Origin: a virus
DNA: 25,273 nt
Virus record (IMG/VR): IMGVR_UViG_3300021364_000701
Location: 1 to 25,273 of that record
Reading direction: 5' to 3' (one strand)
Positions 3,887 through 15,202 of this stretch are shown here, piece after piece (the first letter of the stretch is position 1; each line of letters begins with the position of its first letter). The translations under genes were made by a program, and so were the position numbers. Under the pieces are notes generated by a model. It saw only the letters and a program-made list of their open reading frames with translations, had not been told where the DNA came from and made no database searches.

Positions 3887-5527
3887 TTATTTATCAGAAT
3901 CGCTTTCTGCAGATGCTTTTGCAGGTTTTGCAGCGGGAGGTTCGGGTGGTTGAGCAGACATTTCCAATACCTTTGCATTCATTTCATTTGTATGTACAGG
4001 GTCTGGAACAATACCTTTTTCGATATCTGCTGCCATTTGAATATCCATTTCCTCATACACAACATCAGATTGCTTGAGGACTTCTTTCCTTACATATTCT
4101 GTAGAGTAGTATTTACCAACGAATGGGTCTAACTTCATCAGAATATCTAAGCGAGTATTTAGAATCTCTGCATCGCGCAACTCAGAGAAGTGATTGTCAA
4201 AGAGGAAGTCATACTGGATGTTTTCTTCCATCTCTTCCCAGTCTTCTGGGGTGAGCACACCCTTGAGGACTAGTTGAGTCTTGAGCATATCGTGGAAAAC
4301 GTATGCAAACTTCTTGCGTAGTCTTCCGACAAATTTTGTAAACTTTAATTCGTCTCGTAGTACTTCTGTAGTCTTACCAAGGTTGAAGCCTTTGTTGTCA
4401 TCGGTAAGACGTGAAGGTGGTAGGTTAAGTGAGTTGTAAAGTTTCTTCTTGAAATACTCAACGTCTTTTAATTCACCTAAGTTTTGACCACCAGGAAGTG
4501 TTGTGATTTCTGTGCCTCTACCACCTTCACGGCGAGGTAACCAGAAATCCTCAAGCATACTCATATGCTTTTTGTCATCACGAATCTCACCAGTGTTTGC
4601 ATCGTAAACAAGTTTGTTACGATATCTCTGCATAACATCGCGGAGATATTGCTCTGCTTTTACCTTGGGTAGATTACCAACATCAATGTAGAAAATTCTA
4701 CGCTCGGGTGCGCGTGACAATCTGTAGATAACAAGACTGTCTTCAATCATTCTCAACTGGTTGAGTGCCTTGATTGACTTGTGAAGATAACTCAAATTCA
4801 TCTTCTTATTCAAGTCCATCAAACCGCAAGGTGCGAATGTGACGGCATCAGCAGCAAACTTCATGCCACCTTGCATTGGGTCAGGACCACCAGCAAATGA
4901 AATAAATCCTTTCGGATTATACATGTAGTATTCTAGATACTCACCAAAATCATATGCAGTTGCAGACTGTGGATTTGCGTTTCTATCTAACAGTTGCTGC
5001 GCTGCTTTCTTTTCTCTGTCTTGAATTCTTTGTTTGACTTTTTTAATCTTGAGAGGGTCGATGTATCTAACTTCTACGATACCCTTACCAGGATTTGCTA
5101 AGTCAATTACTTTATGATAGTAGACACGTCCGTCGATATACCAGTTACGGAAAATTTCGTGTGCTTTCTTATCAAAGTTTAAAAGTTTTTTGATGTAATC
5201 AAACTCTTTGCGAATCTTTCTTTTGATAGGTTCGCCTACTTCTAAGTTTGATAATTCAATCTGCACAGCAGATTGGTCTTCATTACTAACAATTGCCTCA
5301 TTGACAATCTCATCAATTGCGGTGTCAACTTCTGGATGAAGCGCCATATCACGATAGCGCCTAATGAGGTCAAACTCATTACGCGCTGTGCCTTCGATAT
5401 CCACATAATGACCGAAGTAGCCACCTGCTACGGTAGCTACTCCATCGTCCTGTTGCGGAGGAATCGGGGACTGTCCCTTGGGTTTCGAGACAGCCCCATT
5501 GATTGAGAATCCGAAAAGTTGACTCAT
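3887..5527 (-). CDS. 20: Portal vertex protein gp20
   Basis: At 546 aa (T4 gp20 is 524) this is the dodecameric portal. It starts prohead assembly, is the DNA channel used by gp16/gp17, and later binds the neck. Conserved segments include IRKEFDYIKKLLNFDKKAHE around 105-124 followed by FRNWYIDGRVYYHKVID, RAPERRIFYIDVGNLP at 272-287, and LPGGQNLGEL at 344-353 followed by YNSLNLPPSRL. Gene 20 is the classical marker for marine T4-like cyanophages. A GATAAATA motif lies 23 bases upstream, on the gp19 stop codon. The predicted leader is about 18 bases with no Shine-Dalgarno. The last codons (GAT AAA TAA) form the late motif for gp67. Confidence 0.97.
   Translation of the reverse strand: MSQLFGFSINGAVSKPKGQSPIPPQQDDGVATVAGGYFGHYVDIEGTARNEFDLIRRYRDMALHPEVDTAIDEIVNEAIVSNEDQSAVQIELSNLEVGEPIKRKIRKEFDYIKKLLNFDKKAHEIFRNWYIDGRVYYHKVIDLANPGKGIVEVRYIDPLKIKKVKQRIQDREKKAAQQLLDRNANPQSATAYDFGEYLEYYMYNPKGFISFAGGPDPMQGGMKFAADAVTFAPCGLMDLNKKMNLSYLHKSIKALNQLRMIEDSLVIYRLSRAPERRIFYIDVGNLPKVKAEQYLRDVMQRYRNKLVYDANTGEIRDDKKHMSMLEDFWLPRREGGRGTEITTLPGGQNLGELKDVEYFKKKLYNSLNLPPSRLTDDNKGFNLGKTTEVLRDELKFTKFVGRLRKKFAYVFHDMLKTQLVLKGVLTPEDWEEMEENIQYDFLFDNHFSELRDAEILNTRLDILMKLDPFVGKYYSTEYVRKEVLKQSDVVYEEMDIQMAADIEKGIVPDPVHTNEMNAKVLEMSAQPPEPPAAKPAKASAESDSDK
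3888..3895 (-). promoter_or_regulatory. Late promoter motif (GATAAATA) for gp67-gp21, on the gp20 stop codon
   Basis: The minus strand reads GATAAATAAT, encoding the last Asp and Lys of gp20 and its TAA stop. The predicted start near 3882 leaves an 18-base leader that contains ATG CTT TAA and no Shine-Dalgarno. Confidence 0.7.
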
Positions 5528-5550
5528 TTTTTAGAATATCACTGATACTT

Positions 5551-5558
5551 TATTTATC
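5551..5558 (-). promoter_or_regulatory. Late promoter motif (GATAAATA) for gp20, on the gp19 stop codon
   Basis: The minus strand reads TGATAAATAAAG, where TGA is the gp19 stop codon. The predicted start is near 5545, about 18 bases before the gp20 ATG. Confidence 0.7.
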
Positions 5559-6153
5559 AGAGTTTGATATCCCCACCTTTGACGCCAGAAGCGGTGCCCT
5601 TAGTTGCAGTCCAATACTGGAGTTGGAATTCAACTGTGAAGTCCTCAATCTGGTCGTTGCTATCATAAGCAACGTCGATTTGAGAAACGTTAGTTGGGAA
5701 TGCACCGATTAGAGTATAGGTTCTTAAAACAGAACCTGCGTCGGATGAATCTCTTTCGAGTTGCTTGACTGTGAGGTCCTTAAGGAAACCAGTGTTGCTC
5801 TCATCGGGAATCCAAGTAGCAGCAGTGTTGCCTTCGTGACGATTCATCGCTTCCATCCATCTTTCAAATCCGTGACGGATTTCAAAGTTTCTGTCGTTGA
5901 TGACGGTTACAGTCCATGTATCGAAGGTGCGGTCACCAGCAATTTTAACTGTGCGACCACGGAATGGGACTTCGATTACACCCAAGTTAGATGCAGGAAG
6001 TGCAGCAGACTTGCAAAGCATGTTTACTGTGTCAAGTGTTGGTGCCTCACTACCTAACTCTGATGGGAATTGAAACTCACATAGAAATAGATTACTCTTA
6101 ACACCTTGTTGTACGGTGTTTAAGAATGATTTGATGTTGCTTGTTACAGCCAT
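5557..6153 (-). CDS. 19: Tail tube protein gp19
   Basis: At 198 aa (T4 gp19 is 163) this subunit polymerises into the rigid inner tube of the contractile tail, inside gp18. Visible segments are MAVTSNIKSFLNTVQQGVKS at the N-terminus, LFLCEFQFPSELG around 22-34, and VPFRGRTVKIAGDRTFDTW around 62-80. It ends in a beta-rich C-terminal half with EDFTVEFQLQYW. It follows gp18 after a 37-base gap with GAGG nine bases from the ATG. No late motif is visible in this gap, so it is probably translated from the gp18 transcript. Its TGA stop is part of the gp20 promoter motif. Confidence 0.93.
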   Translation of the reverse strand: MAVTSNIKSFLNTVQQGVKSNLFLCEFQFPSELGSEAPTLDTVNMLCKSAALPASNLGVIEVPFRGRTVKIAGDRTFDTWTVTVINDRNFEIRHGFERWMEAMNRHEGNTAATWIPDESNTGFLKDLTVKQLERDSSDAGSVLRTYTLIGAFPTNVSQIDVAYDSNDQIEDFTVEFQLQYWTATKGTASGVKGGDIKL

Positions 6154-6190
6154 TGTTGTTTTCCTCTTACGTTAATTAGTTAATAAAATA

Positions 6191-7831
6191 TCAAACTTGA
6201 CCAGTTACTTCCTGGAAGGAAACACCTGATTTCGTTGCAACGAAAGTGAGAGTGATGTAGTTAATCGACCTTGCTGGCTTCAAGTAGATGTCAGCAACAA
6301 ACTCGTTTCTGTCAATGACATCAGGAGTATTATTTGTTTCGTCGCAGACTACTAGGAAGTCAGTAACACCTCTCTTTGCTTGTACTTCACCCATGTAGGA
6401 GTTTACAGTGGAGAAGAATGACCCTCTGGTTGTGGCGTCATTTAATTCAAAGAGCACACCGCGTGCCGCTGCTTGGACTCTTCTCTCGATGTTGAGGAAG
6501 AGACGGCGGACGTTGATTCTGTCGAATGCACTTGGAGTTGTTTGTGCAGTCTTGTCTCCGAAGAGGACAATACCTTGACCAGGGAAAGAAGTAATAGGAT
6601 TAATTCTACCGAGGTATAACTCGTCTCTATGTGCCTTGGTTGGAGTATATGCAAGTTTAATTGCACCTCTGAGGTTACCTCTCTGGAGACCAGCAGGTGA
6701 ATACCAATCTTCAGCGTTGAGTGAAGTCTGGACACAGAGACCAGCAACGTCACCGTTGCAAGGAATGTAACGATACTTATCGTTGAAGCGGTCATAGATA
6801 TACTTGTAACCGCTATCTAGGACAGCGTAAGAGCTGCTTGGGAATGTGCTAAAGTGAGAAACGATTGCATCTTTCTGTGCAGTAACATCAGAAAGACCAA
6901 CGAATCCAGTGCCGTAGGGTGAGCAGAATGCGATGCAATCTTTTCTGGTATCAGCAATTTCAATTGCCTTGAGTTGCTTGGTGATAGTATCAGCGCCAGG
7001 TTGAGAACCAGTTCTGATGCTGCCACCAGAAAGGATGAAATCGATAGTGATGTTTTCTACATCAGTGAAAAGATTTAGAGCATCTTGGACACCAGAGATG
7101 CCAACCGCATAGTCATCAACACCACCACTTAGTGATAGTGCTTCACCACCTGCAGCAGGAAGGTCATCAGCATAAACATACTTGGACTTTCTGTTGATAA
7201 CAGTTGGAAGATATGCAGAAGCACCTTCTCCGTCTACTGCAGCGGGGTCTCTGGAAACATAAAGGAATGTCTCTAGAAGTGTGCCAGCAACGCCACTGAT
7301 TGCGCCATCTTCGTCGATAACTGCAACGTGGGTGATGTTAGCAGATGCAGGTGCAGGTGCTAGTGAAGACCAGAGTGCAGTGCCATGATATGTGTCGGTT
7401 GCATATGTAGTGCTGCTGCCGTCAATAGTAGAAACCTTGAGGGAGTTTCCTAGGGTGCCTGCAGTGCGAGCAGCGAAGTGGTAGGTTGTTGTGCCTGCCT
7501 GTGCTGCCTGGTCATCAGCAGATCTGATGAGGACGCCAGTGCCGCTATCTTCTGCGTTTGCTAAGCTGGAAGACTCAACTCTTACAACTCTCAACGTACC
7601 ACCGTAACCTAAGAAGGTGGATGCTACATACCAATCTTCATAGTTAGAATCGTTTGGTTTGCCAAACGTGTCAATAAATTCTTGTTCTGTTGAAATTGTA
7701 GTGATAACACCAACTGGTCCTTTCTCGAAAGAACCTACGATAGCAGCAGTATTTGCCAAAGAAGGCACTGCAACTGAATTGGTTAAATCACGCTCTCTTA
7801 ATACAATTCCAGGTGATACTTGACCCGCCAT
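6191..7831 (-). CDS. 18: Contractile tail sheath protein gp18
   Basis: At 546 aa it is shorter than T4 gp18 (659 aa), as is common where outer domains are reduced. It polymerises around the gp19 tube and contracts on infection. Family hallmarks are the N-terminus MAGQVSPGIVLRERDLTNSV with TAAIVGSFEKGPVG around 28-41, a variable central region, and the conserved C-terminal sheath domain: INVRRLFLNIERRVQAAARG, then ARSINYITLTFVATKSGVSF near the end. Its leader has the best Shine-Dalgarno in the window (AAGGAGAT), a late motif CTAAATA, and a 7-bp inverted repeat in between. This fits a protein needed in many copies. Confidence 0.97.
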   Translation of the reverse strand: MAGQVSPGIVLRERDLTNSVAVPSLANTAAIVGSFEKGPVGVITTISTEQEFIDTFGKPNDSNYEDWYVASTFLGYGGTLRVVRVESSSLANAEDSGTGVLIRSADDQAAQAGTTTYHFAARTAGTLGNSLKVSTIDGSSTTYATDTYHGTALWSSLAPAPASANITHVAVIDEDGAISGVAGTLLETFLYVSRDPAAVDGEGASAYLPTVINRKSKYVYADDLPAAGGEALSLSGGVDDYAVGISGVQDALNLFTDVENITIDFILSGGSIRTGSQPGADTITKQLKAIEIADTRKDCIAFCSPYGTGFVGLSDVTAQKDAIVSHFSTFPSSSYAVLDSGYKYIYDRFNDKYRYIPCNGDVAGLCVQTSLNAEDWYSPAGLQRGNLRGAIKLAYTPTKAHRDELYLGRINPITSFPGQGIVLFGDKTAQTTPSAFDRINVRRLFLNIERRVQAAARGVLFELNDATTRGSFFSTVNSYMGEVQAKRGVTDFLVVCDETNNTPDVIDRNEFVADIYLKPARSINYITLTFVATKSGVSFQEVTGQV

Positions 7832-7841
7832 GTTTATCTCC

Positions 7842-7866
7842 TTGTAGAAGCATTTTTAATCTACAA
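7842..7866 (-). promoter_or_regulatory. gp18 leader inverted repeat abutting the Shine-Dalgarno
   Basis: On the minus strand TTGTAGA (7866-7860) pairs perfectly with TCTACAA (7848-7842) across an 11-base loop. The downstream arm runs directly into AAGGAGAT (7843-7836), sharing two bases. The predicted late start (about 7862) falls inside the upstream arm, so only read-through RNA could form the whole stem. The pairing is seen; a regulatory role is inferred. Confidence 0.5.
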
Positions 7867-7867
7867 A

Positions 7868-7874
7868 TATTTAG
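7868..7874 (-). promoter_or_regulatory. Late promoter motif (CTAAATA) for gp18
   Basis: The minus strand reads CCTAAATATTTG, 36 bases before the gp18 ATG. The preceding CATTTTCCTAAA (7881-7870) is identical over 12 bases to a block upstream of gp23. This is one of few late motifs here that do not touch a stop codon; the preceding gene ends 53 bases earlier. Confidence 0.8.
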
Positions 7875-7926
7875 GAAAATGAGTATTTCAGATGGTCATT
7901 TTTTGCAGGAACGACGCATGAACGCT

Positions 7927-8157
7927 TTACCAATCAGGGTATTCACAACGGTCAAAAATAGATGTTGTGATTCTGGATACAACTATTCTTTGTATAGCAC
8001 ACACTTTACACTCATATGAATATGACGAAGGTAAGTGTGGTTTTGATTTTCTATGGAGATAAAATTCTGTTACCAAGTCTTTACTCTCACCGCAAGTCCT
8101 ACACCTTCTCTCCTTGAAAAGTAAATGCTCTAACTTTAACTGCGAGTCAAAATCCAT
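7927..8157 (-). CDS. Small Cys4 zinc-binding protein, endonuclease VII/HNH-like finger
   Basis: This 76-aa protein has two CxxC pairs, CRTC at 19-22 and CKVC at 50-53, with FYLHRKSK and SSYSYEC between them. That spacing resembles the zinc knot of T4 endonuclease VII (recombination endonuclease family) and small HNH-like phage proteins. The catalytic portion of endonuclease VII is not evident, so activity is unproven. Its ATG overlaps the gp17 stop codon as TAATG, so it is translationally coupled to the terminase large subunit. I recall similar short ORFs in marine T4-like phages but no assigned function. Roles in packaging, resolving branched DNA before packaging, or nucleic-acid binding are possible. 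The 95 bases after it hold only the gp18 promoter and leader. Confidence 0.75.
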   Translation of the reverse strand: MDFDSQLKLEHLLFKERRCRTCGESKDLVTEFYLHRKSKPHLPSSYSYECKVCAIQRIVVSRITTSIFDRCEYPDW

Positions 8158-9821
8158 TAGTAACCTAGCATATAAGAAACATCAACAGCTTTGTCACCAT
8201 ACTCATCTAGGTGCCAGACTTCGCCATCTTTATCAACATAGATTGCTTCTTCATCATCAACACCATTTACAATAAAACCAAAGGGAGACATGTCTTGCTC
8301 AATTTGATTTGCCTGCTCTTCATAGATACGTTTACGGACATCATTGTCTGTCATCTCTCTGAAGTATGGTTGGACTGCCAACCAAGCAAACAAGACGAGA
8401 CACATTACCAAGTCATCATGGTGACCCTCGTCTGCTTCAAACGATTGATTCTTTTGAATGAATGTTGTCAACTCAGCAATAATTTCATAGTCATTGATGA
8501 GTAGTTTGTCATCCTCAATCAAAGTCTTGAGATTGGAGCATCCCACTTTTTTAGTGACCTTGGACATCTTGAGACCAAGTTGTGATTTAGCACCAGAGAA
8601 TCCTTGACCGACAACCTGTCCTGCTCTTCCTCGCATTGCACACATAAGGATGTTGGGATACTCCAAGTCATAGTGGAGGATGTTACCCACTTGCTCACCA
8701 ATGTCATTAACTTCAATTAGAATGTATGCGTCATTATAATTTTTTCCTACTTGGTCTACGATGCTTGGGAATAGAATTGGTTTGATTTGATTGTTTCGAT
8801 ACTTTGCTACAATGCGCCACGGTAGCGTTGTGATATCGAATACGATAAAAGCGGAGTAATCATTGTCAGTTCCGCGGGAAACGTCAACTGTCATGATATA
8901 GTCTTTTTCTGGGTCAGCATTCTCATAGACCATCAGACCCTTGCTATTATCAGCGATAGGGTCTTCATACACCATCGTGCGAAGTTTCGATGCAGAGATG
9001 AGAGTATCAACAGACCCTAGGAATTCACATTCAAATTCCTGTGTAAACTGTCTCTGCGATGTGTTGGCAATTGTTTGCTCTTTCCATGCAGCATCTCTTC
9101 CTGGAACCTGCGACCAATGGACCTCCAGAGGTTTATAGCTATTCTTTCCACGCTCAGCATCATGCCAAAGTTTATAAAACATATTCATGCCGTTAGGCGT
9201 AGAAATGATAATAACTTTGGTGGTCTTACCAGAGGAGATGGTAGGATATACAGACGAGAAAAACTGCTCAGAGATATGGTTTGGAATAAACGCAAATTCG
9301 TCCAAGAAGATGATGTTAAAAGAGTTACCTCGGACAGATGCAGATGACGTAGATGCAGCAATAATCTTACTACCATTCTCCAATTCCATGGAGCCTCTAT
9401 TCCAAGCGATGATACCCATCTGCATCCACTTAGGAATATTCTCATACGCGAGTTGAAGTCTCGATAGCAATTCTCTGGCAGTCTCTGCCTTGTTAGCAAG
9501 AATTGCAATCTTTACATTGTCATTGAACAGAGCATAATGCAACAGATAAGATACAACCGTAGTTGACTTGCCTGTCTGTCGTGGAAGCTTCGCGATGTTA
9601 AATCTTTCTTTGTGGAAATTTTCAATGAGTTGCTCTTGGAAATCCCACATCTTAAATGGGACTAAACCTTCATCCAGAGAAACAATCTTGATATAATTTC
9701 TAGTAAAGTATACAGGGTCGTCCTTACACTTAATAAATTCAGCAACCTGCTTCTTTGTGAAGTTGATTGCGGTGTTTGTTTTCTTTAGGTTAGGATTACC
9801 AAGATATACGGCGTCTGCCAT
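8157..9821 (-). CDS. 17: Terminase large subunit gp17 (packaging ATPase-nuclease)
   Basis: At 554 aa (T4 gp17 is 610) this motor docks on gp20, pumps DNA into the prohead and cuts the concatemer. ATPase motifs are visible: Walker A RQTGKST at 81-87, Walker B IIFLDE at 170-175, and coupling motif STP at 207-209. The RNase H-like nuclease domain keeps its acidic triad: MTVDVSRG with D313, ILIEVND with E370 and HHDDLVM with D469/D470, corresponding to T4 D401, E458 and D542. The last 40 residues form an acidic tail. A CTAAATA motif overlaps the stop codon of the small upstream gene, with an inverted repeat in the leader and no strong Shine-Dalgarno. A sigma70-type promoter further upstream could also supply it. 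Confidence 0.98.
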   Translation of the reverse strand: MADAVYLGNPNLKKTNTAINFTKKQVAEFIKCKDDPVYFTRNYIKIVSLDEGLVPFKMWDFQEQLIENFHKERFNIAKLPRQTGKSTTVVSYLLHYALFNDNVKIAILANKAETARELLSRLQLAYENIPKWMQMGIIAWNRGSMELENGSKIIAASTSSASVRGNSFNIIFLDEFAFIPNHISEQFFSSVYPTISSGKTTKVIIISTPNGMNMFYKLWHDAERGKNSYKPLEVHWSQVPGRDAAWKEQTIANTSQRQFTQEFECEFLGSVDTLISASKLRTMVYEDPIADNSKGLMVYENADPEKDYIMTVDVSRGTDNDYSAFIVFDITTLPWRIVAKYRNNQIKPILFPSIVDQVGKNYNDAYILIEVNDIGEQVGNILHYDLEYPNILMCAMRGRAGQVVGQGFSGAKSQLGLKMSKVTKKVGCSNLKTLIEDDKLLINDYEIIAELTTFIQKNQSFEADEGHHDDLVMCLVLFAWLAVQPYFREMTDNDVRKRIYEEQANQIEQDMSPFGFIVNGVDDEEAIYVDKDGEVWHLDEYGDKAVDVSYMLGY

Positions 9822-9829
9822 GTCACATC

Positions 9830-9848
9830 ATACTTTCTTCAAAAGTAT
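9830..9848 (-). promoter_or_regulatory. Inverted repeat in the gp17 promoter-leader
   Basis: On the minus strand ATACTTT (9848-9842) pairs with AAAGTAT (9836-9830) around a TGAAG loop. The upstream arm overlaps the late motif and lies before the predicted late start (about 9840). Only RNA coming from upstream would contain both arms. The downstream arm ends eight bases before the gp17 ATG. Confidence 0.45.
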
Positions 9849-9852
9849 TTAG
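9846..9852 (-). promoter_or_regulatory. Late promoter motif (CTAAATA) for gp17, on the upstream stop codon
   Basis: The minus strand reads AACTAAATAC, where TAA is the stop codon of the 81-aa gene. The motif is 24 bases from the gp17 ATG. Confidence 0.75.
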
Positions 9853-10094
9853 TTGGGGAAGTCTTTCTCCAAATCTTCTAAACGCTTCGCCCAAGTGACA
9901 CCACCTTCACTCCCCTTGAGAGGATTGATACAAGTGTCATCGCCTAAGTTATTACAAACTAAACCAGCAAGGTCTAATTCACTCCCTCGGTTTCCTGTGC
10001 CCGACCATCGATGCTCACCATTAATCCACACCGCACCGCATTTCGGACATTCCTTCCTTGATAATTTGAGGTCGGAAAATTCTCTTTCTTCCAT
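9849..10094 (-). CDS. Small zinc-ribbon-like protein upstream of terminase
   Basis: This 81-aa protein has CPKC at 16-19, followed by GEHRWSGTGNRGSELDLAGL and two further Cys in VCNNLGDDTC (47 and 55). Together with His28 these could bind one zinc ion. I recall similar proteins in other marine T4-like phages; no function is assigned. The Cys/His spacing is not a standard HNH, and no nuclease residues can be assigned. It is the first gene after an exact TTGACA/TATAAT promoter and has AAAGG about ten bases before its ATG. It may therefore be made early, unlike its late neighbours. Its stop codon lies in the gp17 late motif. Position next to gp17 suggests a packaging or DNA-processing accessory role, but only by association. 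Confidence 0.75.
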   Translation of the reverse strand: MEEREFSDLKLSRKECPKCGAVWINGEHRWSGTGNRGSELDLAGLVCNNLGDDTCINPLKGSEGGVTWAKRLEDLEKDFPN

Positions 10095-10122
10095 TTAAGT
10101 CTTACCTTTAGACGGTAATCAT

Positions 10123-10150
10123 ATTATATATGGAAGAAAAAGTTTGTCAA
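10123..10150 (-). promoter_or_regulatory. Consensus sigma70-type promoter (TTGACA-16-TATAAT)
   Basis: On the minus strand TTGACA (10150-10145) and TATAAT (10128-10123) both match consensus exactly, with a 16-base spacer. The predicted start is near 10116, giving a leader of about 20 bases to the ATG at 10094. It occupies the largest intergenic gap of the window (10095-10195). In T4-like phages such promoters serve host RNA polymerase in early infection, so it could transcribe the 81-aa gene and gp17 before late modification. No transcript data are available. Confidence 0.8.
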
Positions 10151-10182
10151 GCTACATTGTGTTAAGAAAACTACACTTTATA

Positions 10183-10190
10183 TATAAATA
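10183..10190 (+). promoter_or_regulatory. Plus-strand TATAAATA late-promoter match, antisense orientation
   Basis: The plus strand reads TATAAATATTC just before the 3' end of the 164-aa gene. It is an exact match to the T4 late element but points away from any plus-strand gene, so RNA from it would be antisense to the three-gene cluster. The surrounding sequence is AT-rich and nearly palindromic, so chance is a real alternative. Confidence 0.3.
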
Positions 10191-10195
10191 TTCTC

Positions 10196-10690
10196 TTAAC
10201 AATTCCACGCCCTAAGGGACTTATTGATGCGTGAATCCTTGTCGTTGGCAGTTTTCTTGCTAGTTAGTTTCTTTTTCATGCCTTTCATTCTGGCACAAAA
10301 GGATGCCCTACGGGGATTTCCAACCTTCTTTGATGGTGCCTTAAGGTCGCTTCCAGGATTTTCTCTCTCGTAAGATTTTCTTCCTTTCTCGTTAAGTCCA
10401 CCTTCTTTGTTTTTTCCTGATTTTTTTGTCCAGGCTGCTCCTTCATCCAATTCGTTGCGGGGAACATCCAAGGATTCACTCACACCACTATCCATATAAT
10501 CAGCTACAGTATCAAGGTAATCAGTTGCACGGGTAATCTTAGATTGGACCCATGCCTCAAGGTTACCGTCACCTTGGACGTGCTTATTTATTCTTTCGAT
10601 AGCACTCATAGATACAGCTAATTCTCTACGAACCATGCTATACTCTGAATACTCATTTAATTGAGTGCGGAATTCTTTGAAGGTTTTCAT
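10196..10690 (-). CDS. Basic marine-phage protein with a DUF6321-like C-terminal region
   Basis: The 164-aa protein has two parts. Residues 1-80 are helical, starting MKTFKEFRTQLNE, a lead-in common to many small cyanophage proteins, and include ERINKHVQGDGNLEAWVQSK. From about residue 84 a strongly basic region follows: AWTKKSGKNKEGGLNEKGRK, ENPGSDLKAP, NPRRASFCARMKGMKKKL and DSRINKSLRAWNC. I recognise this C-terminal pattern as the DUF6321 type common in T4-like cyanophages. The function is unknown; the charge suggests DNA or capsid-interior binding (inference). The start overlaps the upstream stop codon as TAATG. The next 101 bases hold a sigma70 promoter for the following genes. Confidence 0.85.
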   Translation of the reverse strand: MKTFKEFRTQLNEYSEYSMVRRELAVSMSAIERINKHVQGDGNLEAWVQSKITRATDYLDTVADYMDSGVSESLDVPRNELDEGAAWTKKSGKNKEGGLNEKGRKSYERENPGSDLKAPSKKVGNPRRASFCARMKGMKKKLTSKKTANDKDSRINKSLRAWNC

Positions 10691-11481
10691 TAGTTGTCTA
10701 CCAGAATTACGTCGAAAATTGCTCCACCACCTACACCATTTTGAGATAGACCTTTTATTTCTATATCTGTTTTCTCTTCAAATCTTAAAGGAACTGGATA
10801 GTCATAGTTGAACCCAGAAGCAAATACTCCAAACTGACCTTTAACATTAAATGCTCCACCAAAAGGTCTTGCATACAATCTAAACAGAGCATCATTGTTA
10901 GCATCAATAGAACCTTGAAGTTTCATCAAATATCCTGTCTTGCCAGCAGGGATCGTATATAAGGACATCAAAGTTTGACCAGCACCAGCAATAATTACTG
11001 CTACATCATTGACACCATTTTTAATTCTAATCTCATCCTCATTAGTTGTGCCAGTATTTGCAGTAACCATTCTTGCACGGAACACTCTGGAGAATTGTGC
11101 TACTGATGCAGCACCACCAATAGTCAAGGTTTCTGTTACGGGAGCATAGTTTTCATCTAAACCCTGAACCTCTACAGTTCCGCCATCATCAGTTACGCCC
11201 TGACCAGCATTATCTGCAACTGCAGTTACTGTAGCGGCAGCATAGTATGCATAATCTGCTGCCTTATCCCAAATGGTTTGCCAAGAACCAGCAATGGTAT
11301 CTCTATATCCAAACTTATTGATATGTGAATAACCAGTTAGAAGACCAGCCGCAATTGGAATGTTGGCGGCAGCACCATAACTGTTGAGTGGATTGCCGAG
11401 CTGGTCGGCAAGCATCACTACCTCAAAATTTGTTGTGTCCTGTGCTCTATATTCTTGAGCATCTTTATTCCACTGTGCCAT
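10690..11481 (-). CDS. Probable virion structural protein, beta-rich, unknown role
   Basis: This 263-aa protein begins MAQWNKDAQEYRAQDTTNFE and is rich in Ala, Gly, Thr and beta-forming residues, with few charges. It has no signal peptide or membrane segment. A segment SLYTIPAGKTGYLMKLQGSI around 186-205 resembles beta-sandwich folds of phage decoration or fibre proteins. Related proteins occur, to my recollection, in marine T4-like phages as structural or hypothetical proteins. It is coupled by TAATG overlaps to the 81-aa gene before it and the 164-aa gene after it, and shares their late promoter motif at 11748-11755. The position between the terminase subunits does not by itself indicate packaging; a head-surface or neck component is equally possible. 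Confidence 0.8.
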   Translation of the reverse strand: MAQWNKDAQEYRAQDTTNFEVVMLADQLGNPLNSYGAAANIPIAAGLLTGYSHINKFGYRDTIAGSWQTIWDKAADYAYYAAATVTAVADNAGQGVTDDGGTVEVQGLDENYAPVTETLTIGGAASVAQFSRVFRARMVTANTGTTNEDEIRIKNGVNDVAVIIAGAGQTLMSLYTIPAGKTGYLMKLQGSIDANNDALFRLYARPFGGAFNVKGQFGVFASGFNYDYPVPLRFEEKTDIEIKGLSQNGVGGGAIFDVILVDN

Positions 11482-11726
11482 TAGTTTGAATATGCTACTT
11501 TAACAACTAGGAAATCAGACCCACCTTCCAAAGTATCGGATGCTTCTTTTTCCAAATAGATAATTTCGTTTGCTGCGATGGTAACATCAGCAATTAATGC
11601 TCCAGTGGAATCTTTGCGTGTTAGTGTTGCAGCTGCTCCAGTATTATTAACTCTAACAACGGTTGCTAAACCTACATTGATAGCAGAAGTAAGGTCCGTC
11701 TCAGACCCTAATAGTTTGACAATCAT
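11481..11726 (-). CDS. Small beta-rich protein, probable virion component
   Basis: The 81-aa protein MIVKLLGSETDLTSAINVGL continues with VVRVNNTGAAATLTRKDSTG and NEIIYLEKEASDTLEGG. This alternating beta pattern would fit a compact barrel or sandwich. It is acidic and has no Cys. It has an AAAGGA Shine-Dalgarno and a late motif at the gp16 stop codon. Its stop codon overlaps the start of the 263-aa protein (TAATG), so the two are probably made together and might interact. I recall comparable short ORFs in marine T4-like phages without a defined function. Confidence 0.78.
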   Translation of the reverse strand: MIVKLLGSETDLTSAINVGLATVVRVNNTGAAATLTRKDSTGALIADVTIAANEIIYLEKEASDTLEGGSDFLVVKVAYSN

Positions 11727-11747
11727 TTATCTATTCCTTTGTTAAAT

Positions 11748-11755
11748 TATTTATT
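11748..11755 (-). promoter_or_regulatory. Late-like promoter motif (AATAAATA) on the gp16 stop codon
   Basis: The minus strand reads GAATAAATAAT, where the first TAA is the gp16 stop codon. It precedes the 81-aa gene by 22 bases. The first base differs from TATAAATA. Confidence 0.55.
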
Positions 11756-12158
11756 CTTCAACCTTCCCACGCTTAAGCATTTTTTGTAACTCAGCAGTGC
11801 TGCCTAAGAAGATAGCATTGTTAGTAACAGAGGAAGGACCTTTTTTCTCCTCATCCTTATTTAGGTTTTTCATCTTCTGTTGAAGGTCAATCAATTTGTC
11901 AGACATATCTGCAACCTGCTTCATAGCATTGACTGCCACCTCAAATGCTCTAGGGTGTCCTGACTCCTGAGCGACCTCTAGAGCGCCCTGTACTGCCTCT
12001 TGACCCTGCTCGATGAGTCTATACAACTCTCCTCTTGTATATTCGTAATCTTTAGTAGCATCAACGTTTTCTTCTTCCTTCACAATCTCAGCAGATTTAG
12101 TTTCTTCAGAAACATCTATATCAAAGATTTCTTCCATATTATCCTCAAACTTGGTCAT
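11751..12158 (-). CDS. 16: Terminase small subunit gp16
   Basis: This 135-aa protein (T4 gp16 is 164) lies between gp15 and the packaging ATPase, as in T4. gp16 forms rings that recognise viral DNA and regulate gp17. The first 40 residues are acidic and low-complexity. The rest is helical: YTRGELYRLIEQGQEAVQGA around 40-59, and AMKQVADMSDKLIDLQQKMK around 78-97, a coiled-coil oligomerisation segment. It ends in a charged tail. The start codon overlaps the gp15 stop codon as ATGA; an internal Met8 is a less likely start. Three genes separate it from gp17, whereas in T4 genes 16 and 17 adjoin. Confidence 0.85.
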   Translation of the reverse strand: MTKFEDNMEEIFDIDVSEETKSAEIVKEEENVDATKDYEYTRGELYRLIEQGQEAVQGALEVAQESGHPRAFEVAVNAMKQVADMSDKLIDLQQKMKNLNKDEEKKGPSSVTNNAIFLGSTAELQKMLKRGKVEE

Positions 12159-12955
12159 AAGATTTCAATCCCTTCATTAAATCCAAAGTCATCGTCTGGG
12201 TTAAGTAGTAATGTATCTGCAGCATCAATAACATTATCTGCATTGAGGTCTGTTGTTGCCTCTGGTTGTGTGGTGTAACGCATAGTCCTCTTATGCTGAC
12301 CCAAATCACCAATAGATGCTTCGACAATACTCTTGCGAATGAGGTCTGCATTGACAAGAGGACCGTATAGATATGTCTTAGCAGTAAATCCTAGTGTATA
12401 GATGATGCTTCTTCTAGTCATGAAGTCATCTTCATAATCATCCTCATAGTCAATAGAGTTGAGGACATATGCAATATCTCTCTTCTCATCCATATCAGGA
12501 ATCATATTTACTGTGACAGTAAATGCTGGTTGGAAGAATGGCAGAATCTGCTCAATAATCTGCAGAGCATCGTCCTGTGACTTTGCGATGATACCTAACT
12601 CAAAACCAATATTGTATGGTACTGGCATGTATTGCTTCTTAGCACCAGTAGTAGACCCATCTTCTTTTAGGTAATACTGAATAGGACTCGTCTTTCTTGA
12701 CGGGTCATAATTCATATTAGTCATCTCAAATGAGATTCTAGGAAGCGTGATGGCAACCTTACGACCTACCTCAGGATTCTGCTCAAGGCGAGCAAGAAAC
12801 TTATTCTTCGGACCATAAGCAACTGCTACTTTCTGACGCTCAATTTCAACATTCGTCTCGGGGTCTTTCTTAATGACCTGAATGTTGTTAAACAGCGTGC
12901 CGAAAGCAACTACAGTTTTCTTAATACATGAATGGTAAAAGTGATTCCCTAACAT
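12155..12955 (-). CDS. 15: Tail completion / sheath stabiliser protein gp15
   Basis: This 266-aa protein (T4 gp15 is 272) starts MLGNHFYHSCIKKTVVAFGT and continues LFNNIQVIKK, the family signature. It also has EGKxx-like alternation of conserved helices, with YEDDYEDDFMTRRSIIYTLG around 169-188. gp15 forms the hexameric cap that ends the tail and joins it to the gp13/gp14 neck. Near the C-terminus, residues 236-247 (DLNADNVIDAAD) have the spacing of a dockerin or EF-hand-type calcium loop, with D/N at positions 1, 3, 5, 9 and 12. DDFGFNE follows. The start overlaps the gp14 stop codon (TGATG) and the stop overlaps the gp16 start (ATGA), so the cassette is translationally coupled. Confidence 0.94.
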   Translation of the reverse strand: MLGNHFYHSCIKKTVVAFGTLFNNIQVIKKDPETNVEIERQKVAVAYGPKNKFLARLEQNPEVGRKVAITLPRISFEMTNMNYDPSRKTSPIQYYLKEDGSTTGAKKQYMPVPYNIGFELGIIAKSQDDALQIIEQILPFFQPAFTVTVNMIPDMDEKRDIAYVLNSIDYEDDYEDDFMTRRSIIYTLGFTAKTYLYGPLVNADLIRKSIVEASIGDLGQHKRTMRYTTQPEATTDLNADNVIDAADTLLLNPDDDFGFNEGIEIL

Positions 12956-13869
12956 CAGAAGCTATCCGTTTTGTTTCCATACTCACCGAATGGATTACCT
13001 TCGGTCCAATCAATAATATCGTCACCAAAATCTTCAAGGTATTGATTTTGTGCAAAGTCGTTGTGGTCTAAGTCAATATCAATAGTAGAGAAAGACTCTA
13101 CTTCCCATGTAGCACCGCTGGATTGACCAACGATATTAGCATCTTCTATTAAATCTCCACCATTTATATATGTTAGATTTAACTGTCTAGACGTTGGGTC
13201 CCAATTTGATACAGATGCTTTGACAGTAACAGTGTTACCAGCAGTGTCTGTATATACCTGCTGGACCTCTTCTTGAATAGTGAAGTGTCCAGTGCCACCG
13301 TCTTTGAAGTAGACTGGGAATTCATATGCGTTTTGATTGTCTTTACCAATGCTATCAAGGTTGGTGTCACCAGTTTCAAAGATAGCGTTGCCTGCTTCGT
13401 AGATTTCAGCAGTCATAGTAAAGTAGTAAATCTTACCTAACTGATAGAAAGGCGATTCTCTTTCTACAAATTTGATTTCATAGAAATCATTTGTGAGAGG
13501 ATAGTAAATCAAGTCTCCTTCATTTGGTCTTGCCTGCACAGTGAGAGTCAGAGTCTTTGCCATGACATCTTCCCATCTACGTTGAGACACAACAAACGTA
13601 ATCTCATCAGTAACACGAAGACCAAACTTGGAAATAAATTCCGATTGAGCACCAAAACCTTCTACGTTTACGAGATACATCTCAACGAGGTATGCCTCCT
13701 TAAACTTAGACATCACGACATCCTGCAGTGCTCTATCAATAAGCATCTGCCTTGGGATGTAGTAAACCTCTGCACCAAATAATTTTAGTTGCTCATCAAC
13801 TAAATCTTGAATTAGTGTTTGCTCAGGGGTGATACCACCATGCTGAGGAAAGTATACACTCTTAGCCAT
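12955..13869 (-). CDS. 14: Neck protein gp14 (head completion)
   Basis: At 304 aa it is longer than T4 gp14 (256 aa). The N-terminus MAKSVYFPQHGGITPEQTLI followed by DLVDEQLKLFGAEVYYIPRQ is characteristic. It acts with gp13 to close filled heads and form the collar to which the tail binds. Further recognisable segments are EAYLVEMYLVNVEGFG around 58-73 and NEGDLIYYPLTNDFYEIKFV around 115-134. The C-terminus NPFGEYGNKTDSF is also family-like. The start lies one base after the gp13 stop codon (TGATATG) and the stop overlaps gp15. Confidence 0.94.
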   Translation of the reverse strand: MAKSVYFPQHGGITPEQTLIQDLVDEQLKLFGAEVYYIPRQMLIDRALQDVVMSKFKEAYLVEMYLVNVEGFGAQSEFISKFGLRVTDEITFVVSQRRWEDVMAKTLTLTVQARPNEGDLIYYPLTNDFYEIKFVERESPFYQLGKIYYFTMTAEIYEAGNAIFETGDTNLDSIGKDNQNAYEFPVYFKDGGTGHFTIQEEVQQVYTDTAGNTVTVKASVSNWDPTSRQLNLTYINGGDLIEDANIVGQSSGATWEVESFSTIDIDLDHNDFAQNQYLEDFGDDIIDWTEGNPFGEYGNKTDSF

Positions 13870-13870
13870 A

Positions 13871-14683
13871 TCAACCGATTGCGTCTAGTGGTGGTAACTC
13901 GTAATCTGAAATCATCTTGGATTCGATTTCATCCATCTCTCTTTGACCATCAGAAAATAACTTCTCACCGTTAAGTGACACAGCACCAGGAAGTTGAATG
14001 CCATTAAACTTGATGAGATTCTGACCCCACTGTCTCTTAATGAGAGCAGTTAGATATCTCTTGAGGAAGAAGTCGTTGTAGATTTTTGTGTGGTCTGTTG
14101 GGTCTAGAGCACGATAGCATTCGATAATCAGGTATCTATCTTCCTGAATATTCTTTGCTTCGTAGTCGATGTATAATCTATTCTGTCTCTTAGTGTAACG
14201 TAGTTGAATGAAAGCACCAGTATTCAATACCATGTCTAGAGTTTCTAGATATGATTTTGTCATGTAGTAGTTGAGGATATCCAATGACCCGAATGCATAC
14301 AAGTCATTCAAAAACATTTGATACTCGATACCAAACAAGTCACCACGAATACTACTGGCAACGAAAGAAAACATTCTTTCGACACCAATGATGTGGTCTG
14401 GCAATTCTAGATAGTTATTTCTTTCTTCCCACACATCTCCATTAGGACCTGTTGTGGTAGCATTGCTTGTTTGAAAACGTGCTTCATCTGCAGCAGTAAA
14501 CTTGTGCTTGAGAAACATTTTTTCAACACCATCAAAATGCCTTTCGTTAAAATACTGCAGTGCCTCATCCACCAAGTCTTCTACTTGGTCTTCATCTACG
14601 TTAATTTCTAGCACTGGAGCACCCAGCCTACGAAGACAGTAATCAATCAATTCTTGCCTTGTAGCAGGTTTAGATTTAGACAT
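13871..14683 (-). CDS. 13: Neck protein gp13 (head completion)
   Basis: This 270-aa protein (T4 gp13 is 309) begins MSKSKPATRQELIDYCLRRL and continues with GAPVLEINVDEDQVEDLVDE and ALQYFNERHFDG, the family's N-terminal signature. It also has YRALDPTDHTKIYNDFFLKR and LIKRQWGQNLIKF in the C-terminal half, typical of gp13. It forms the collar ring between portal and tail. It opens the coupled cassette 13-14-15-16, behind a terminator and a CATAAATA late motif. The leader can form a small hairpin that places AAGGG in its loop. Confidence 0.94.
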   Translation of the reverse strand: MSKSKPATRQELIDYCLRRLGAPVLEINVDEDQVEDLVDEALQYFNERHFDGVEKMFLKHKFTAADEARFQTSNATTTGPNGDVWEERNNYLELPDHIIGVERMFSFVASSIRGDLFGIEYQMFLNDLYAFGSLDILNYYMTKSYLETLDMVLNTGAFIQLRYTKRQNRLYIDYEAKNIQEDRYLIIECYRALDPTDHTKIYNDFFLKRYLTALIKRQWGQNLIKFNGIQLPGAVSLNGEKLFSDGQREMDEIESKMISDYELPPLDAIG

Positions 14684-14691
14684 GAATACAA

Positions 14692-14705
14692 AGAGACCCT
14701 TCTCT
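14692..14705 (-). promoter_or_regulatory. gp13 leader hairpin with Shine-Dalgarno-like loop
   Basis: The minus strand reads AGAGA-AGGG-TCTCT, a perfect 5-bp stem with a four-base loop, eight bases before the gp13 ATG. AAGGG is the only Shine-Dalgarno-like stretch in the leader. The predicted late start (about 14702) falls within the upstream arm. Confidence 0.45.
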
Positions 14706-14707
14706 AC

Positions 14708-14715
14708 TATTTATG
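14708..14715 (-). promoter_or_regulatory. Late promoter motif (CATAAATA) for gp13-14-15-16
   Basis: The minus strand reads CATAAATAGTAG, just after the terminator of the 144-aa gene and 24 bases before the gp13 ATG. One base differs from TATAAATA. Confidence 0.75.
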
Positions 14716-14720
14716 GATAT

Positions 14721-14745
14721 AAAAAAACTCCCATATAGGGAGTTT
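14721..14745 (-). terminator. Rho-independent terminator after the 144-aa gene
   Basis: On the minus strand AAACTCCC pairs with GGGAGTTT across TATAT, followed by a T run (complement of the A tract at 14721-14727). It lies 22 bases after the stop codon of the 144-aa gene and separates the fibre block from the neck cassette. Confidence 0.88.
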
Positions 14746-14767
14746 AAAAATTATTTTTTACTTTCTG

Positions 14768-15202
14768 TCAACCAACCATGTACCATGCGTTATCAGTTTC
14801 GGACCATTGGAGCTCTTTCCAAGACCTACTTGCTTCATCCCATCCATGCATTGGAGCACCTGCAGGTTCTTCTGGTCTGGCAACAGGTGGTTCCCATTGG
14901 CAAGTTTCTTCATTCAACAACCATGATGGATAAGGTCTAGGCGGAATGAAAGCATCTCTGCTTTCATCATAAGTAAACCCTTCACCAGGATAGTTTTTAC
15001 GAAAATTGCCATTATAAGAGCATTGTTTCCAAATAGAGTTTGGGTCTCCCCAAACTCTTTTGAGGTAATCAATACCAGTTTGCTCATCTTCAACACCCTC
15101 ATCTGGATGTGTCCAATTATTTAACTTATATAAATGCGAGTTATCAACCACAGTAACATATGTTACTTCATTGTTGTTGTTTAATTTAGCAAAATGTGCC
15201 AT
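14768..15202 (-). CDS. Conserved marine-phage protein of unknown function next to fibre genes
   Basis: This 144-aa protein begins MAHFAKLNNNNEVTYVTVVD, then WGDPNSIWKQCSYNGNFRKN, GFTYDESRDAFIPPRPYPSW and LNEETCQWEPP. I recognise the pattern from many marine phages, usually near tail-fibre genes, with no established role. The W- and P-rich tandem 'xYDExxDxFIPPxPYxSW / CxWEPP / WDExxxSW' segments look like short beta-hairpin repeats. It is cytosolic by sequence. It has its own TATAAATA motif and a terminator, so it is probably made from a monocistronic late RNA. A fibre-assembly or virion-surface role is suggested only by position. Confidence 0.85.
   Translation of the reverse strand: MAHFAKLNNNNEVTYVTVVDNSHLYKLNNWTHPDEGVEDEQTGIDYLKRVWGDPNSIWKQCSYNGNFRKNYPGEGFTYDESRDAFIPPRPYPSWLLNEETCQWEPPVARPEEPAGAPMHGWDEASRSWKELQWSETDNAWYMVG

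Follow-up and report, generated by a model that had tools for sequence, protein, structure and literature searches.

A T4-like marine cyanophage carries, within its late structural block, an exact match to the host-type sigma70 promoter consensus, directly ahead of a small four-cysteine gene (T4-GC392) and the terminase gene gp17. The reading we favour, and judge slightly likelier to be right than wrong, is that this promoter heads a GC392-gp17 unit, is used before late transcription and supplies an NblD-like protein with a role at the light-harvesting antenna. The promoter, its conservation within the clade, the recurrence of a host-type -10 element at GC392 across cyanophages and the relationship to NblD are read from the sequences compared here.

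Genomic setting

The window (the whole 25,273-base stretch that was analysed) is a fragment of a T4-like marine cyanophage, as judged from both DNA and protein matches. All of its main genes are on the minus strand, in the order gp13, gp14, gp15, gp16, two small genes, a DUF6321 gene, the 81-aa gene, gp17, an endonuclease-VII-like gene, gp18 and onwards, the names being assigned by order and by the annotation of relatives. The 101-nt gap at 10095-10195 is the largest intergenic gap in the window, the next largest being 95 and 84 nt. The features in and around it are as follows.

11748-11754, minus strand: late motif, upstream of the GC392-gp17 unit
10196..10690, minus strand: DUF6321 protein, upstream neighbour of the 81-aa gene, matching the T4-GC119 position in Syn1 and S-ShM2
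10161..10200, minus strand: imperfect hairpin GTTAAGAGAA / TTTTCTTAAC, between the upstream stop codon and the promoter
10183..10190, plus strand: late-type motif TATAAATA, on the strand opposite to the genes
10151..10155, minus strand: GTAGC element, abutting the -35 hexamer
10145..10150, minus strand: -35 hexamer TTGACA (6/6), identical in all six sequence classes of the window's clade
10123..10128, minus strand: -10 hexamer TATAAT (6/6), separated from the -35 by a 16-nt spacer
9849..10094, minus strand: T4-GC392 (phrog_484), 81 aa, four Cys, NblD-like
8157..9821, minus strand: gp17, terminase large subunit, 27 nt downstream of the 81-aa gene

No terminator-like site was found in the 27 nt between the 81-aa gene and gp17, and the two genes are probably co-transcribed from the same promoter.

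The gap falls inside the g15-g18 segment, a hyperplastic region, specific to cyanophages, that is known to acquire metabolic genes (PMC2984593; PMC3037559; the region is credited to Millard 2009 in the citation given by PMC2984593). A mobile petE-PTOX-gnd-zwf-GC119-endonuclease cassette has also been described (Sullivan 2010; PMC3037559). The window shares this position and retains a DUF6321/GC119-like gene, GC392 and a GC282-like endonuclease around gp17, but, unlike the petE-PTOX-gnd-zwf cassette, its copy has no remaining metabolic genes. In relatives, genes for petE, ferredoxin, plastoquinol terminal oxidase and 6-phosphogluconate dehydrogenase adjoin GC392. The original prediction had treated a non-late promoter in a late region as an anomaly. 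Given the metabolic genes in the g15-g18 region and beside GC392 in relatives, such a promoter is not the oddity of one genome, and this part of the prediction falls away.

The late block is otherwise well supplied with late signals. ATAAATA late motifs number 14 in the window, where 5 would be expected; 13 are on the coding strand, and many precede a gene start by 22-51 nt. None of the T4-type form (T/N)ATAAATA lies on the coding (minus) strand of the 10095-10195 gap; in contrast to the many window genes preceded by this element, the gap has it on the opposite strand only. This copy, TATAAATA, is the only plus-strand late motif in the window, lies directly after the DUF6321 stop codon and is conserved in the related loci L001-L004 and L074. 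It is possibly an antisense late start, giving RNA over DUF6321.

A sigma70-type promoter in the intergenic gap

The site at 10150..10123(-) agrees with the sigma70 hexamers at 12 of 12 consensus positions, with a spacer of 16 nt (15-19 nt being allowed), and is the sole perfect TTGACA-N16-TATAAT in the window. Such a site is expected 0.03 times per window, and three of 100 dinucleotide shuffles contain one. A looser scan of positions 5000-15000 gave 13 promoter-like sites, fewer than the 24.3 expected by chance; since the looser sites fall below chance, it is exactness that marks out this one. From the -10 to the start codon of the 81-aa gene is a distance of 28 nt, and transcription would be expected to start near 10116, in agreement with the original prediction, with a leader of about 22 nt.

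Coordinates and shuffles bear out the original prediction of an exact minus-strand TTGACA-N16-TATAAT in the largest gap, ahead of an 81-aa gene and gp17. Its assignment as a sigma70-type promoter also stands, the hexamers persisting in relatives as the spacer drifts. The hexamers could instead be a chance match, GC392 being transcribed only through late read-through, which the upstream motif at 11748-11754(-) could supply. Against this stand the low expected number, the fixed hexamers beside a drifting spacer, the positional recurrence in relatives and the enrichment of this promoter class in cyanophage genomes, so that we consider chance very improbable and regard the site, with high confidence, as a real promoter.

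Several other elements of the gap were considered. The hairpin at 10161..10200 was rejected as a terminator, being weak (z -1.5), without a U-tract and not canonical; in S-WAM1 a hairpin with a T-run is visible by eye at the corresponding place. Tandem repeats ahead of the promoter, which on inspection resembled regulatory boxes, were likewise set aside: the window does not exceed dinucleotide shuffles for HLR1 (RpaB; KTTACAWW-N2-KTTACAWW), NtcA (GTA-N8-TAC) or Pho boxes. Over 20 relatives HLR1 was marginal only, at scattered positions, and GTA-N9-TAC, a pattern picked after looking, was enriched at a fixed position in some of the relatives and missing from the window's clade. The leader of the clade (10095-10123(-) and relatives) carries a short conserved stem, GTCT...AGAC, with an AAGG ribosome-binding sequence in its loop, and the Syn33-type leader carries GTATCA-ACG-TGATAC.

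Conservation of the promoter in relatives

The loci L001-L004, which were found by the 81-aa protein alone, retain the exact TTGACA-N16-TATAAT, and L074, also found by protein, has TTGACA-N16-TATACT. Over the six sequence classes of the window's clade, identity is 1.00 in the -35, 0.94 in the -10 and 0.65 in the spacer; four of these classes (the window, L002, L003 and L074) were found without the promoter pattern, and the other two, L148 and L192, are known only from loci fetched with it and have no independent weight. L148, L166 and L192 were retrieved by the pattern itself and so do not test its conservation. Conservation of the hexamers upstream of homologues, which had been named beforehand as a test, is thus present in the window's clade.

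In more remote relatives GC392 is usually preceded by an additional small gene (T4-GC836/918), which then has the promoter in front of it. An exact TATAAT lies 8-40 nt upstream of the unit in 29 of 55 non-redundant relatives, compared with 11 of 206 control genes (Fisher p 8e-15), a contrast that is inflated because the controls, other genes of the same loci, include operon-internal genes. The ATAAATA late motif is under-represented at the unit (3/55 relatives against 34/206 control genes).

Alignment on the -10 resolved several promoter types at the GC392 unit: the GTAGC-TTGACA of the window; a type with GTAGC, TACAC and CTACATA before TATAAT; and a GGTAAATAGT type. A GTAGC/GTAAC element upstream of the -10 is found in other promoter types of GC392 as well as in the window. 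CTACATA-N2-5-TATAAT occurs exactly once per genome in eight complete genomes, always at the GC392 unit, and GTAAATAGT-N1-5-TATA once per genome in seven, at the GC392 unit in six of them. An inverted repeat, CTACA...TGTAG, flanks the -10 of the GC836-GC392 unit in S-RIM44, S-WAM2 and ACG-2014e, an arrangement that suggests a dedicated operator. The same repeat around the -10 is seen among the unit promoters of L087, L093, L094, L084 and L101. A scan of viral contigs with a looser GTAGCTTGACA...TATAAT pattern was of little use, as only a few of the resulting contigs hold GC392.

The -10 of the GC392 promoter (TATAAT/TACAAT) shares positions with a late-type AATAAATA in Sf-FR1 (L082) and Syn2 (L100). 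These two phages may have superimposed middle and late promoters here, and, given this overlap, some relatives may also express GC392 late.

The promoter may follow GC392 rather than gp17

A real promoter could also serve an early supply of the gp17 terminase, priming the packaging module, with GC392 riding along as a packaging or virion accessory. GC392 does lie directly before gp17 in the window (27-nt gap) and in many phages, on what would be one shared transcript. Other genes, however, separate the two in Syn33, S-RIM8, S-WAM1 and ACG-2014a, and GC392 is outside the late block and apart from gp17 in P-HM2, S-CAM7, Sf-CH8 and tRNA-array loci; some of the gp17-distant loci (L005, L020) still have a TTGACA promoter at the GC392 unit. 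Private promoter sequence goes with the GC392 unit instead of gp17, and the protein matches NblD rather than packaging proteins. An arrangement made for gp17 therefore seems unlikely to us, and we prefer a promoter that belongs to GC392.

In P-HM2, GC392 is found near psbA, psbD, CP12 and talC. A GC836-GC392 pair lies inside tRNA arrays in L005, L013, L029, L030, L031 and others, partly with its own TTGACA promoter, and on this arrangement the pair looks as if it moves as a cassette.

Sigma70-type promoters and the timing of expression

Perfect sigma70 patterns (spacer 15-18) are a recurrent feature of cyanophages: 20 complete genomes contain 80, against 7 for the reversed pattern, and 74 of the 80 are on the forward strand of the record. 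One such site in Syn1 precedes gp55, the late sigma factor, and another a small gene after speD; two further sites fall within coding sequence, near mazG and near a 2OG oxygenase gene. Both perfect sites of P-HM2 overlap or fall in coding sequence. Since gp55 is needed before late transcription, the class should include at least one promoter that is used pre-late.

The window's promoter resembles the host-like (sigma70/SigA-type) middle promoters of T4-like cyanophages such as Syn9, and the sigma70-like promoters of S-PM2 and Syn9, in its -35 and -10 hexamers, its expected dependence on a host sigma factor and its coding-strand position, in a class that also precedes gp55 in Syn1. It differs in its place inside the late structural block, in the abutting GTAGC element and in combining full-consensus hexamers with a 16-nt spacer rather than the usual 17 nt.

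Host-like promoters were reportedly assigned to middle genes in the Syn9 transcriptome of Doron et al. 2016. In P-HM2, expression of metabolic genes is confined to the middle class (PMC5082946), and sigma70-like early promoters have been reported in S-PM2 and Syn9 (PMC2984593). From promoter class and literature we infer that pre-late use is probable, and predict that the promoter at 10150..10123(-) belongs to the middle class. The 'early or constitutive' supply of the original prediction is the less likely form of such use.

GC392 and its relationship to NblD

The GC392 family (phrog_484) comprises at least 442 phage records with one copy each, annotated as hypothetical, and a search of the viral library with GC392 returned essentially its own family. 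Across 36 GC392 sequences 19 residues are invariant, including the four Cys (C16, C19, C47 and C55). The NCBIfam NblD model (NF053522) gave a sub-threshold match to 33 of the 36 members. The protein of the window scores 15.1 bits against an equivalog cut-off of 80, so we term GC392 a remote homologue and do not file it as an NblD orthologue.

For a direct comparison of profiles, 20 NblD sequences were taken from cyanobacterial genomes. Alignment with hhalign covered 54 columns with a probability of 88% and an E-value of 3e-6, which applies to a single comparison. When columns were shuffled with the Cys fixed, the score fell to 12.3 +/- 3.0 from 35.5 observed, and none of 100 shuffles was as good; the similarity is near full-length and extends beyond the Cys residues. 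The NblD profile was also run against 16,226 ORFs of the collected loci, where its best 60 hits were only the GC392 family and its cyanobacterial homologues. In the opposite direction, a GC392-family profile did not find NblD in 292 cyanobacterial genomes.

GC392 and NblD have in common a small size, a CxxC-x27-C-x7-C arrangement (in part of the NblD family), a C-I-N motif and the significant profile match. The spacings of 27 (second to third Cys) and 7 (third to fourth) occur in 35 of the 36 phage proteins and 7 of the 20 NblD sequences, the remaining NblD sequences having longer loops between Cys. Unlike NblD, GC392 has an extra N-terminal SDL motif and a C-terminal GG-x-TW-x-x-R motif, is phage-encoded, occurs also in phages of Prochlorococcus and scores well below the equivalog cut-off. 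Taken as a comparison of profiles, these data give us good confidence that GC392 is a remote homologue of NblD, a phycobilisome-degradation factor of cyanobacteria. In the limited set of papers searched, none linked NblD to a cyanophage. Cyanophage nblA (e.g. in Ma-LMM01) provides a precedent for a phage copy of a host antenna-degradation factor; NblA, a proteolysis adaptor, is unrelated to GC392 as a protein.

The likeness to NblD could be that of a four-Cys scaffold only, with GC392 a generic zinc-ribbon protein (binding, for example, RNA polymerase, the ribosome or DNA) behind a real, pre-late promoter. NCBIfam does give a short S27ae zinc-ribbon match (17.9 bits, CPxCG part only), and the AlphaFold model, a confident small fold (pLDDT 84), resembles none of the solved structures searched, with no usable match by sequence or by fold. 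The presence of GC392 in Prochlorococcus phages would fit such a protein too. On the other side, the NblD match persists in non-Cys columns with the Cys fixed, the alignment is nearly full-length with the 27/7 spacing and C-I-N motif in common, and the nearest cellular homologues have a phycobilisome-linker neighbourhood. We hold the generic zinc-ribbon to be doubtful, and prefer a relative of NblD.

Distribution of GC392 and its cellular homologues

When host is judged, crudely, by the word with which the record name begins, GC392 is found in 362 records named for Synechococcus, a group in which 377 have gp17, and in 14 named for Prochlorococcus, a group in which 24 match the region by DNA. 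Phages isolated on Prochlorococcus that carry GC392 include the MED4 phages P-HM1 and P-HM2, among others. To our knowledge Prochlorococcus is without phycobilisomes, which argues against a role at phycobilisomes only: either GC392 has another or additional target, or it has been retained through host switching.

The closest cellular homologues (profile match probability 99.6) are encoded on eight Synechococcus/Prochlorococcaceae contigs (L226-L233), several of them from sponge symbionts, at 47-53% identity. A phycobilisome-linker gene (PF00427) is divergently adjacent to the homologue in seven of the eight, Pfam-confirmed in L227 and L229 and identified by tblastn in the rest; as the contigs form one related group, these seven count as one or few independent observations. 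Gene order thereby gives a second line of evidence linking the GC392 family with the antenna. In L227 two linker-like ORFs stand in tandem. Three further records, filed under an archaeon, Rhodobacteraceae and Nonlabens (L222-L224), were rejected as cellular homologues: DUF6321 lies upstream, with gp17 following in L223, and they are probably cyanophage DNA contaminating those assemblies.

Proposed role of the unit

We propose that a host-type sigma70 (group-1 sigma) promoter heads the small unit GC392-gp17 inside the late structural block. Unmodified host RNA polymerase with its main sigma factor would read it once phage DNA is in the cell, ahead of gp55-dependent late transcription and most likely in the middle class, and the four-Cys protein would be produced before virion assembly. 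GC392 would most likely act on the phycobilisomes of the host, by loosening or dismantling the antenna or by guiding pigment-protein turnover. Read-through would give an early supply of gp17, which could later also be reached from the late promoter at 11748-11754.

The original prediction had proposed a role before packaging or on host functions. This is probably correct, given a host-type promoter of its own across cyanophages, a location outside the late block in some of them and the likeness to NblD. Action on the host antenna, as an inferred function, has in our view an even chance. More tentative still is the specific proposal that GC392 is a phage NblD-type factor which dismantles or retunes the phycobilisome before assembly, under a promoter that follows the gene and, in several lineages, has gene-private flanking sequence and, as the dyad suggests, a dedicated operator.

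If so, a hypothetical gene of most sequenced T4-like Synechococcus phages would gain a candidate role in control of the light-harvesting antenna, which is the largest pigment-protein and nitrogen store of the host cell, and the promoter suggests a conserved pre-late transcription unit within the cyanophage late block.
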